A stretch of 64,000 nucleotides of DNA, from assembly GCF_048128805.1 (NCBI RefSeq), contig NC_136013.1:6642102-6706101 (forward strand), given 5' to 3'. Under the pieces are notes generated by a model. That model was not told the DNA's origin, ran no database searches, and saw only the letters and a program-made list of their open reading frames with translations. The translations under genes were made by a program, and so were the position numbers. Origin of the DNA: Centroberyx gerrardi. Lineage: Eukaryota; Chordata; Actinopteri; Beryciformes; Berycidae. The first letter of the stretch is position 1; the number at the start of each line of letters is the position of its first letter. Below are positions 1,114-52,321 of this stretch, one piece after another.

Positions 1114-4100
1114 GTCACTGATATCGCTGATGCCATGATTCTCAAGCAGCTTTTTGAGAACCTGTTCCTGAACGGTGTTGTTGTGGTAGCCACCTCTAAT
1201 CGTCCCCCAGAAGGTGAGCAGCAAGTGGCGTGACATTTCCTCAATGCATTTTGTCTGCTGGAGTGCCTTCAGAAACTATTCAACCCCCCCTGACGTTTTC
1301 TGCATTTTGAGGCATTACATCCTGAATTCAAAATAGATTGAATTTGTTTTTTTTGGCACTGATCCCCACAATAACCCATAATGTCAAAGTAGATTTTTTG
1401 TTTACATTTTTTACAAATTAATTGAAAATGAAAAGCTGAGATGGTTTGAGTCAAGCATTCAACTCCTTTGCAGCAACACTACAAAATCCAAATTCCTTTG
1501 AATGTTCTTAAGATGTCTGTATAATTTGATTGGAGTCCATTTTTTATTATGTAGAATGTAACATATATGTCCCACAGATGACGGTGCATGTCAAGAGCAG
1601 AAACTCCAAAATGAAATCCAAGGAACTGTGTGTACAATTCAGGGACAGAAATGTAAGGAATCACAGATCTGGGGAATGGTATAAAACAATTTCTGAAGTT
1701 GTGGGAGTTGACTTGAGCACAGTAGGCTCCATCATTAAGAAATAGATCAAATATGGAACTACCCACACACTGTCTAGAGCTGGTTCCAACCAAACAGGAC
1801 AAGAAAAACCTTGTTCAGGGAGGAGACAAGAACCTAACTGCAAAATACCACAAAATGCAGAAAAAGTTAAGGGGTGTTAATACTTTCTGAAGGCTCTGTA
1901 CTTTTAAAGTTTAACTAGAATAATCAAAGCAAATGGGAAAACATCTTATGACCACCACTCTTTTTTCCTCAGACTTGTATAAAAATGGACTACAGAGAGT
2001 CAACTTCGTGCCTTTTATTGCCGTGTTGCAGGTAAGGAAAAGTAGAAGTAATTAAAGAGCTGTGGCTTTGACATGCCTCAAGCATATGTGCTGCAGTTAG
2101 AAATTAATGACAGCAGTTGCCATTTGTGATAAGCTTATTGAAACTTCTGTCATAATCTTTATATTTTAAAGGCATGTATTGGTAATCATTTTTCCCTCCC
2201 ATGCAGCAATATTGCCAAACTCTTCGCCTGGATTCTGGGATAGATTACCGCAAAAGGAATAGGCCATCCGCTGGAAAACTCTACTTTCTGTAAGTAATGC
2301 ATGACGCAAACCAATCAATAACTGTACTGGATTTATCTGGAATGTGTGTATTCAGGATTATTTTTGTTCACTGATCACTGCAAGCCAGTAGTATAAATGT
2401 TTGGTGTTTTTTTTAATGTTGCCTTATTACATTTTAATGCAGCTCAAGCGAGGCGGATGCAGAAGCTACACTAGACAAGATGTTCGATGATCTGGCGTTT
2501 AAACAGAACGACAGTAAGTGGATTTGCACATGAGCGTTTAACTTTGTAATGCTGTGGCTGATATTAGGGGATTTTCTTGTCCGTTTTGTTGCTATTGCCT
2601 CAGAAATTGAAACCTTTTGTATTGTGATGTGTTTTTACCATAATGCTTTTTCCCCACAGTAACACGACCAAGGGTGCTGAACGTACATAACAGGAAAGTG
2701 CGTCTGAACAAAGCATGTGGGACCATAGCAGACTGTACTTTTGAGGAGCTGTGTGACAGAGTAAGTGTCTCGGCCCTTTATTTTTTGTGAAATTCATGGA
2801 ATCCACTGATGGCATAGGTCTACATTTATCATCCTTAAAAGAGTGCGACTGCTGATCTGGCTTCTTTTGGTCTTTCTGTGGCTGCACATTTTCAAATTTA
2901 CTGTTTTGTTCCATTTATTGCTTTATTGGCAATATATTTTTAGCATCTGATTACCGACAGGACACACTGACAGATCTGGATGCACAAAAATCTGTTTTTT
3001 TCACATTTCTCTTTGTTTGTAGGTGGGCCACTGCGCTCAGACCAGTCAGTGCATTATTTTTGTATGAAATGTCCATTAATAAGAATGGAATCACACTCAA
3101 TCAGTAAGGATATTTTTAAGCATAATTTATTTAATGATGGACAAAATGTTTTCGGCACTCTGGCCGTCATCAGTGTCCCAGGTTGTTCACATTGCTAACA
3201 GATCTTTAAAACCAGATGTGGAAGTCATCAGGCTTCTATTATGATTGGAATTATACATGGTGTTGACACAATCCAGCCATAATGCCCTAAAGAGCAATTT
3301 AAAGAGATGGAGAGGATGAGCAGGGACATGTATTTAAATGCATACACCCACAGGAATCTTATAACAGGCATTTTCAGGCCAAGTGTGGATGATCAAATCT
3401 AAAAAATCACATGGAAATGAAAAGTGTACAGTAACGTTAGCCAGTATAGAGTCCTGGCCATGGATACAAGTGATTCTAGATCAGAAATCCTACTCTTAAT
3501 ATGTTTATATTTATATTTTCCTACCTTTTAATATGTTTATCTTGTGTTGGTTTGGTTTTTACTGTCTGTCATTCAACTGCTGGCTACTACAACTAAGGTT
3601 CCCTTCCGTGAAAATTAAAGTTATTCTATCCTATTCTTGATAACTACAAGCCGTGGTACTGGTGACACCTAGTTGAATGGACCTGAGATAATTACTTAAT
3701 GTGCTGTTTCAGCCTCTAGGGGCCAGTGACTACCTGGAGATGTCCAGGCTGTTTGACACCATCTTTATCCGACACATTCCTCTGCTGACGCTGAACAAGA
3801 AGACTCAAGCCAGGCGGCTCATAACGCTTATAGACACCCTCTATGACCATAAGGTACATCGCAGTTATTCATTTTCTTGAAGGCCTTCAGACACACTTGA
3901 CCTATTGTAAATAACTGAATTTTAGCAGTGTTTTGTATGTTAATGGTTCATTTTGTCTTGATTGAGGTGCGGGTGGTGATTCTGGCAGATCACCCGCTGG
4001 AGGATATTTTTGTGCACGGTGGGGATCATGATCACGACGAGAGTCACATCCTCATGGACGACCTGGGGCTGAAAAGGGTAAGCGCTCCGACTTTGTTTTC

Positions 4101-49458: not shown

Positions 49459-51050
49459 ATGAAGAGTGTGAAGGTCGTGGTGGTGGGAGCAGGTGTGATT
49501 GGCCTCTCCACGGCCGTCTGCATCGCCGAGGCTCTTCCCTTCTGCTCGGTGACTCTGCTGGCTGACCAGTTCAGCCCGGACACCACCAGCGATGGGGCTG
49601 CTGGGATACTGTTCGCTGCACAGTTTCCAGGTATGCACAAGTCTGGTTTTTCCACCTGACACTCAAATTATCAGGCTAAAAATCATTTGCAAGGCAGAAA
49701 TTCCCTTGTCTACTCCTCTCTCTCTCTCCATCTTCATCTCTCTGCAAATATATTCTATAGAGATTATTTTTGCTGTATTTGCCAATCAGATATTCCTTTG
49801 GAGAGACAGAGACGCTGGTTCAAGGAAAGTTTTGAGCACTTGTTGGCCATTGCTCAATCCCAGCATGCATCTGAAGCTGGAGTGCTGCTGAGCTCAGGGT
49901 AAGAGGTCTTCTTGACTGACCCAGTGTGGAAAAGAGGTTGATATTCTGCCAAGGTTACTATTATATGATCTCTTTACATCCAGTGATTTTTGATTTATAT
50001 ATTTTTTCTTCTAGGTGGCAGATTTTCAAGGAGGTCCCCGCTAAGAAGGAGCCCTTCTGGTCGGAGTTTGTGCTGGGCTTTCGCCTCATGACCGCCCGGG
50101 AACTGAAGCGGTTTCCAGATCACAAGTTTGGCCAGGCTTTCACCACCATCAAATGTGAATGTTCCAGCTACCTGCCATGGCTGGAGCAAAGGTTCCTCCT
50201 CTAATTATTCATAGTAAAACAGAGTGTGTCATTATCATCAGGTCAATATACTTTCAGTTGAACTACTCCAGGATTTTCTTAAAAAAAAAAAAAAAAAGCC
50301 TTTTGCCATGAAAAGATTCACAATTAACACTTAATTTAATTAATTCCAGTGCAATTTACATTTTGAATTCATTGACTGAAATGGAATCAAACCCAATCAT
50401 GGCCTTTATAGATATGAATATAAACAACTGTTAAATATGCTCTCTATGACAAGTTATTTACATAAACTCTTTTCACTCCTGTTTTCTTAAGGTTCAGAAA
50501 AGCTGGAGGCCAAGTTGAACAGAGGAAAGTCAACAATCTGCAGGAATTAAGCGAAAGCTACGACATCATTGTCAACTGCTCTGGCCTGGGCTCCAAAACC
50601 CTGGTGGGCGACCTCCAGGTGCACCCGGTCAGGGGCCAGGTCCTCAAGGTGCAGGCCCCCTGGCTGCAGCACTTCATCAGAGACGGAGACGGAAAGACCT
50701 ACGTCTACCCCGGCGTTGACAGCGTCACTATAGGCGGCACGAGGCAGGAGGGCGACTGGAGGCTGGAAGTGGACGAAGGAGACACCAGGAGCATCCTGGA
50801 GCGCTGCGGCAGGCTGGAGCCTTCGCTGAGCACCGCCAAGGTGCTGAGCGAGTGGGTGGGCCTGAGGCCGAGCAGGAGGAACCCGCGGGTGGAGAGGGAG
50901 CTGGCGCTGCTGCAGGGCCGCCGGGTGCCGCTGGTCCACAACTACGGCCACGGGGGCTGGGGGGTGACGCTCGCCTGGGGCACCGCCCTGGATGCTCTGG
51001 GGCTGGTCCGGCAGTGTCTTCATGAAATGCCTCCACAGGCTAAACTGTGA
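49459..51050 (+). CDS. ddo: D-aspartate oxidase
   Basis: Peroxisomal FAD enzyme that oxidatively deaminates D-aspartate and related acidic D-amino acids to 2-oxo acids, ammonia and hydrogen peroxide. Four exons, 49459-49630, 49790-49898, 50015-50191, 50492-51050, give 338 residues (human 341). The start lies in CCACCATGA and fits the N-terminal FAD-binding fold: [14 protein letters not shown] (GxGxxG, residues 10-15). Other blocks: [95 protein letters not shown] and HFIRDG are DDO-like rather than DAO-like. The C-terminus QAKL ends in AKL, a good PTS1 peroxisomal signal. The third exon's donor (AG|GTTCCT) is weak but keeps the frame. The 3' end is partly duplicated just downstream. Confidence 0.96.
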
Positions 51051-51105
51051 ACAAATTCTGCTGCTAAATTCTACTGTATTTGGTGCGAACAACACTTGCC
51101 TTTAA

Positions 51106-51386
51106 AGAGCAAATCGACACTACATCACATAGGGCAGGAAATTGCTTCTCCACTGCTCTCGGTTTGAAACTTTCAAGCATGTTGCTGTTTTCAAGCATGT
51201 TGCACTAGTGGCCACACCCCAATCAGGGATGTCAAAGCAGGTATTTCGCCAAAACCGAAATACCTGCTTTGACATCCCTGATTGGGGTGTGGCCACTAGT
51301 GCAACATGCTTGAAAACAGCAACATGCTTGAAAGTTTCAAACCACAGAGCAGTGGAGAAGCAATTTTCTGCCTGTTGATTTGCTCT
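51106..51386. mobile_element. Palindromic foldback MITE, piggyBac-like TTAA insertion
   Basis: Left arm to 51248 and right arm from 51256 are almost perfect reverse complements, around a 7-nt loop CCAAAAC. The left arm carries one short extra segment. The ends AGAGCAAATC and GATTTGCTCT are inverted repeats, directly flanked by TTAA on both sides (51102-51105, 51387-51390). No coding capacity. TTAA duplication is the mark of piggyBac-type transposition; assigning the family is inference. Confidence 0.85.
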
Positions 51387-51608
51387 TTAAGTAAAGAGAT
51401 CTACTAGCAGAGAGATGCAATTCATTTAAAGATAACAAATGCAGACTTACTGAAATGTGTCGAAGAAGTGAGAGAAGAAAAGCAAGCAGTCTTATTTGGT
51501 TTTTACAATGTACATAAGGGAAATGATTTAGGGAAACACATTAGTGAAAGCAATGGTGTTTTAATTTACTACAAAGAGTGATTATTATACAATTTATGTT
51601 TGGAGACA

Positions 51609-51925
51609 CTGGAGCTGATCAGGCAGCATCTTCATGAAATCCGTCCACAGGCCAGACTGTGAAGAAATTCTGCTACTAATTTCTACTGTATTTGGTGCCA
51701 ATAGCAGTTGCCTTTGAGTGAAGAGAGCTACTGGCAGAGAGATGCAATTCATTTAAAGATAACAAATGCAAATGCAGAGTTACTCAAATGTGATGAAGTG
51801 ATGGTACAGAGCTGACTGTCTAACCGTATTAATCATCAGGAAAACACTGTACATTAATGAATGTAATGGCATTTACTACTGAGAGTGATAATAAAAATGA
51901 TTTGTTTATGTCTGATAATTTAAAA
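51609..51925 (+). pseudogene. Partial second copy of the ddo 3' end
   Basis: 51609-51662 encodes LELIRQHLHEIRPQARL and a stop, aligning with the authentic ddo end [17 protein letters not shown] (50997-51050). The similarity continues into the 3' UTR (CTACTGTATTTGGTG, GCAGAGAGATGCAATTCATT). No upstream catalytic sequence is present, so it is a broken fragment and not a gene. The retained ARL still looks like a PTS1 end. Confidence 0.75.
51890..51895 (+). terminator. Candidate ddo poly(A) signal AATAAA
   Basis: Canonical hexamer located in the duplicated copy. The corresponding place in the first copy reads GATTATTATAC and lacks it. Confidence 0.5.
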
Positions 51926-51994
51926 TATGACATTGGACTCATTCCCTCAGCAACGAATGTTTCCAAAATCTGCAATTTCTTACTGTAGGTTGTC

Positions 51995-52000
51995 TTTATT
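51995..52000 (-). terminator. Candidate sash1 poly(A) signal
   Basis: AATAAA on the minus strand, 322 bp after the sash1 stop, about 100 bp from the convergent ddo signal. Confidence 0.5.
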
Positions 52001-52321
52001 GCTCATATTAATTGATTGTATCAACTACATTAAATTATATTCAGTATTTTCCAATGCTTCTGTGCTTGCATGTATTTACAGGCGACATCAGTTCAACAGT
52101 TAGGTAACAGGGATCAACAATGATTCTTAATTGTAATGCTTTGTCTGGCAGTATTGATTTTTGTCACATTATGAAAGCTAGTTGACAATTGCAGTAACCA
52201 TTATTCTAGAAAAGCCAGTAATATACAGTAATATACACTTGAACACTTGATGAAGTCCATGTAAAACATCTTCCGTTTGCCTCGGCTTCTATGTAGACGT
52301 GCAGGAGGCAAAAATCTGGGA

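Follow-up and report, generated by a model that had tools for sequence, protein, structure and literature searches.

One arm of a palindromic MITE in the duplicated ddo 3' end was probably copied from the other

The 3' end of ddo is tandemly duplicated in the 64,000-nucleotide stretch of Centroberyx gerrardi DNA that we analysed (the window), and a palindromic MITE copy sits between TTAA flanks in the first of the two duplicates. Its two arms are almost identical, and the best reading is that one of them was probably overwritten by a copy of the other through template switching. The insertion anatomy, the MITE family, the ends of the element and the rare and private changes shared by its arms were observed directly. 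The element itself is ordinary, and the arm conversion is unusually clear. The locus thus offers a natural vertebrate palindrome in which arm-to-arm copying is legible from private variants, with an empty site adjoining. Both the element and the copying process are of kinds already known, and the case is clear but local. The homogenised arms were the unexpected part; an initial annotation of this DNA had made no mention of them.

The duplicated ddo 3' end and its empty site

The gene that carries the element is D-aspartate oxidase (ddo), with 6rkf as its best solved-structure match (E 4.3e-51) and the Pfam domain DAO. The 3' end of this gene forms a tandem pair, here called copy A and copy B (Table 1). 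The initial annotation had proposed that the last 17 codons and the 3' UTR were doubled, and our alignment bears this out. With the element removed, copy A aligns to copy B at a local score of 241, compared to a maximum of 29 in 200 shuffles. This similarity is significant: in its best part, 169 of the 195 aligned bases agree (97/117 upstream of the insertion point and 72/78 downstream). The proposed starts, 50997 and 51609, were slightly late, since the two copies begin at 50989 and 51601. A weaker similarity extends to 51599 in copy A and 51911 in copy B (score 63.5; the top of 500 shuffles reached 62). When copy B was searched in the assembly, it matched its own locus only, that is, itself and two pieces of copy A. 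Seventeen codons and a stop are readable in both 3' ends. The open C-termini kept in the two copies (50997-51050 and 51609-51662) end in QAKL and QARL, both of which we take to resemble peroxisomal targeting signals.

The palindrome is confined to copy A, where it was originally described as a 281-bp element between TTAA flanks and where we confirm it at 51106-51386, and copy B is without any trace of it. At the insertion point, copy B reads CCTTTGAGTGAAGAG and copy A minus the element reads CCTTTAAGTAAAGAG. The built-in empty site that had been claimed for the second copy is therefore supported by the alignment, though it is a diverged one, because copy B has TTGA at the position of the insertion.

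The same annotation held that the insertion postdates the duplication or that the element was lost from one copy. The empty site in this claim stands, and for the order we infer that insertion after duplication is the simplest, since a single insertion is simpler than an insertion, a duplication and a precise loss. It is distinctly unlikely that the element predates the tandem duplication and was then precisely lost from copy B. Such a loss has a precedent in piggyBac, which excises precisely at TTAA, but it would take two steps, an excision plus a mutation, where a single insertion suffices, and copy B has TTGA with nothing left of the element. Under insertion after duplication, if TTGA was ancestral, then a mutation that followed the duplication made copy A alone a TTAA target; with TTAA as the ancestral state, copy B mutated to TTGA.

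The RNA fold of the element region (289 nt) reaches -245.3 kcal/mol, compared to a shuffle mean of -74.5 (z -35.6). A scan of 50901-52100 found a single AATAAA, in copy B, and an ATTAAA at 52029. If the AATAAA at 51890 is the ddo poly(A) signal, the hairpin would presumably be transcribed as part of the ddo mRNA, and the 3' UTR of this metabolic gene would then contain some 130 bp of duplex.

Table 1. Positions in the window of the two ddo 3' ends, the element and its parts
Feature	Position	Strand	Basis or remark
Copy A of the ddo 3' end, carries the element	50989..51599	+	Alignment; stop codon 51048-51050
Left TTAA flank (target-site duplication)	51102..51105		Sequence and family ends
Palindromic MITE copy, 281 bp	51106..51386		Sequence, family search, fold
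13 nt of left arm without right-arm counterpart	51120..51132	+	Placement as aligned; unpaired in fold
Inner left arm, perfect over 88 bp; favoured as conversion template	51161..51248	+	Direction from arm comparisons
Private tandem duplication (18-bp spacing), left arm	51171..51203	+	Sequence, assembly search
7-nt loop	51249..51255		Spacer longer and asymmetric in most relatives
Inner right arm, perfect over 88 bp; favoured as overwritten arm	51256..51343	-	Direction from arm comparisons
Private tandem duplication (18-bp spacing), right arm	51301..51333	-	Sequence, assembly search
Right TTAA flank (target-site duplication)	51387..51390		Sequence and family ends
Copy B of the ddo 3' end, lacking the element	51601..51911	+	Alignment strong to 51801, weaker to 51911
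TTGA, empty-site position in copy B	51714..51717	+	Alignment to copy A
AATAAA in copy B	51890..51895	+	Only AATAAA within 50901-52100

The MITE family and its mobiliser

To place the element, we searched the 779-Mb assembly for the palindrome and counted its TTAA flanks, which revealed a multi-copy family. The whole element matched at least 39 other places (40 of 216 candidates were scored). A 27-base arm probe gave 150 matches at ≤2 mismatches and a 31-base end probe gave 141 at ≤3 mismatches, with 0 matches for either reversed control. Our family sample comprises 97 other loci, 39 of them picked by similarity to the window copy and 58 by arm probes, the latter drawn from among the matches listed. 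As is usual for MITEs, the element is short (281 bp) and non-coding, has terminal inverted repeats and occurs in many copies. The copies are not, however, highly alike, as mean arm identity between copies is 84.9% (34 copies). In BLAST, the scored matches are mostly 68-82% identical to the window copy, with short pieces up to 93%. This low identity between copies reads as that of an old family.

The ends of the family are well defined, in counts that tilt towards well-kept ends because 73 arm pieces beginning after model position 4 were excluded. With nested ends set aside, TTAA is exact at 63/85 ends and has one change at 17/85, while the first four bases of the element are AGAG at 62/85 and AGGG at 10/85. 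In a stricter set, which leaves out the window copy, repeat-nested ends and smaller look-alike flank groups, TTAA is exact at 55/74 ends and 68/74 start with AG. Among the 22 loci with both ends readable, 12 have TTAA at both. Further out the base composition is mixed, apart from a slight surplus of T and C directly next to the TTAA.

Another 25 ends are nested in a second repeat and were tallied separately (TTAA at 16/25). Some MITE copies seem to share one TTAA of this second, longer repeat and were apparently carried along with it. An empty version of the nesting repeat was sought in the assembly, with 0 matches at ≤3 mismatches. Among 130 flanks compared, two clusters of 17 flanks each are alike outside TTAA. 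The loci with look-alike flanks are L015, L017, L022, L023, L029, L030, L032, L037, L038, L063, L072, L073, L078, L079, L084-L086, L088, L093, L099-L102 and L106. One further locus, L107, has a 297-bp stretch twice in direct orientation (1-297 and 2784-3080, 98% alike). Each of these 297-bp copies contains part of one MITE arm, and between them lies a 311-aa open frame that is olfactory receptor-like, judged from its first residues.

Which transposase moved the family can be approached from its ends. Kolobok elements follow a rule of TTAA targets and 5'-RR..YY-3' ends (PMC9587614, in excerpt), and Xenopus Kolobok had AG termini in all ten copies for which both ends were found, according to an excerpt of PMC6004289. 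Both features, the TTAA target-site duplication and the 5'-RR/YY-3' termini, are present at the ends of our family, and the window copy itself has AG..CT termini. Because of this TTAA target and these AG..CT ends, the ends alone favour a Kolobok-type mobiliser, which may have acted in trans. The likeness of the window element to the Kolobok superfamily consists of the shared TTAA duplication and RR..YY ends, AG..CT here (excerpts of PMC9587614 and PMC6004289), so that the assignment is one by ends. An autonomous copy or transposase was sought in four 6-kb regions, beside 5 of the 141 end matches, and none was found there; two of the four regions contain ordinary two-armed copies.

The initial annotation had instead taken the TTAA preference as a sign of piggyBac-type mobilisation. 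A piggyBac transposase as the mobiliser is very unlikely: the TTAA target-site duplication agrees with it (exact at 55/74 ends), but piggyBac-type ends start with CC[C/T]T (PMC2872659, in excerpt), a motif that is absent here, where 68/74 ends start with AG. On these ends, we reject a piggyBac origin. The coral piggyBac-type MITEs in that excerpt have the TTAA duplication in common with the window element, but their CC[C/T]T ends are absent from it (PMC2872659).

The window element also resembles the Xenopus T2-MITE in that both are short and non-coding, target TTAA and start with AG (PMC6004289, in excerpt). However, the excerpt gives AGGRR for T2-MITE ends (PMC6004289), and this terminal motif is not that of our family, with its predominant AGAG and less common AGGG.

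Near-identical arms as a trait of the window copy

The inner arms of the window copy are complementary at 88/88 positions and stand 7 nt apart. This perfect stem of 88 bp compares to a longest stem of at most 44 bp, and a median of 11, in the other 74 two-armed copies. (Both arms could be read in 75 of 98 loci, and 38 loci offered 60 comparable positions.) Similarly, the window arms are 98.2% identical over 112 comparable positions, compared to a mean of 82.9% between them and the arms of other copies. To see how arms compare across the family, we used a sample of 40 loci, of which 36 were two-armed and 34 had at least 40 comparable positions. In these 34 copies, the window copy included, mean arm identity was 86.3% within copies and 84.9% across copies. 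Within-copy identity exceeded the cross-copy mean in 21/34 copies, the window copy among them, which indicates that near-identical arms are a trait of the window copy and not of the family. A general rule by which arms are kept alike in every copy is unsupported by these 21/34.

The private variants of the window copy point the same way. In the assembly, its 18-bp-spaced tandem duplication has two matches at ≤3 mismatches, and these are the copy's own two arms. A probe for two changes in AATTGCTTCTCCACTGCTCT matched both window arms exactly; its only other hits were two single arms, each differing by one change. An inner-end probe again matched both window arms exactly and elsewhere one arm of L012, with one change. 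In the 98-locus alignment, the window arms are partly joined (71 positions), and so we used the 112-position arms for the counts of rare bases and diagnostic columns. Of the rare bases in the window copy, defined as those in ≤3% of other arms, 6 are shared by the two arms and 1 is confined to a single arm, compared to 12 shared and 344 confined to one arm across the other 74 copies (Fisher p 4e-8). Where the units of the tandem duplication join, two alignment columns are unreliable in the window arms, and we therefore repeated the count without them (window 5 vs 1, others 12 vs 337; Fisher p 8e-7). As expected under template switching, the derived variants of one arm are thus also found in the other.

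Still, part of this signal is supplied by subfamily ancestry, given the sharing of changes within copies across the family and the rare bases of L019. In the other copies, the window copy left out, changes shared between a copy's own arms amount to 1.94%, a modest excess above all 1000 shuffled pairings (mean 0.90%, max 1.38%). Three of the shared rare bases of the window copy co-occur in one arm of L019.

Two other copies, L041 and L036, have 3 and 2 rare bases in both arms, respectively. These are possible smaller conversion tracts.

Izsvak et al. are said to have proposed, in 1999, a hairpin-based copying model for Angel-type palindromic fish MITEs. By this description, and not by sequence, the Angel-type MITEs and the window element are alike as palindromic fish MITEs. 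The copying considered here is that of a single element and does not account for its family as a whole.

The copying resembles template switching between inverted-repeat arms, in which the sequence of one arm is copied into the other and the arms become identical (PMC8604942, in excerpt). Many reports of homogenised long inverted repeats are cited within that excerpt (PMC8604942). The yeast arms it describes are 7-16 bp (PMC8604942), whereas the window copy would have been copied over at least 88 bp, including the tandem duplication. A literature search found no paper on the homogenisation of MITE arms by template switching; as many subscription journals lay outside this search, the result is no proof of absence.

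Direction, mechanism and place of the copying

We propose that the MITE, a non-autonomous DNA transposon of a scattered family, inserted at TTAA in the first of the two tandem ddo 3'-end copies and that, at some point, a nascent DNA strand may have folded back at the short loop, copied at least 88 bp of one arm and switched back. A single fold-back event of this kind would yield the near-perfect inner hairpin, the shortened loop and the presence of one arm's changes in both. The tandem duplication of one arm would have been carried into the other by the same copying. A polymerase is the presumed agent of this arm copying. The trace expected of gene conversion following a break is nearly the same as that of template switching.

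Because the spacer of the relatives is asymmetric, most copies can be oriented, and 70 were. The middle of the family spacer is absent from the window copy, whose loop score is nearly even (10 vs 8), and this copy was oriented by eye from the GCC after its left arm. Between the left and right arms of the relatives, five columns differ at p < 0.005. The best separator is column 126, with A 33, G 27 and C 2 in left arms and A 3 and G 52 in right arms; the window copy has the left-type A in both arms. At columns 40 and 52, it has T in both arms, a base that is commoner in left arms and frequent in both. By contrast, at column 120 it has G in both arms, which is commoner in right arms. At column 130, both window arms have C, which is rare in relatives (2/57 and 1/43). 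Finally, GGTATTTCG, which L012 shares with the window copy, is restricted to the left arm in that relative. Mainly through column 126 and this one relative, the likelier template is the left arm, on the 51102 side, a direction that these comparisons suggest weakly.

The differences that remain between the window arms bear on where the copying took place. They amount to four events, namely two A/G differences, a 13-nt gap and a C against GT. Of the 147 positions of the arms, the outer 59 contain all four events and the inner 88 contain none. With an even spread, differences would be restricted to the outer part with a probability of 0.026, in a test made after the pattern had been seen. Because the arms differ only in their outer parts, it is probable that the inner tract arose after the outer parts had diverged.

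Copying probably took place at the ddo locus itself. The main alternative is that the arms were equalised in a source element that then transposed to ddo and has since been lost or is absent from the assembly. This is the lesser possibility, though one to be taken seriously. A transposed copy would agree with the intact TTAA at both ends, and variants of the window copy recur in a single arm of L019 and of L012. Against it, the tandem duplication is found nowhere else in the assembly at ≤3 mismatches, which favours the ddo locus over a source element, and the four arm differences are all outer, with the low post hoc probability given above. Long palindromes are difficult to sequence, but it is highly improbable that the perfect inner stem is a hairpin artefact of assembly or sequencing, given the four events, including the 13-nt gap, that distinguish the outer arms.

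A broader conjecture, which we consider unlikely, is that snap-back arm copying restores near-perfect palindromes within a MITE family that is old and decaying, and that the ddo locus represents such a renewal before further spread. If true, snap-back renewal would give individual copies matching arms again, and new subfamilies could start from them.

In the outer arms (51102-51160), two of the three mismatched columns have G in the left arm and A in the right arm, read on the + strand. The right-arm A is the family consensus at both, and the third column is a C/T beside a gap.
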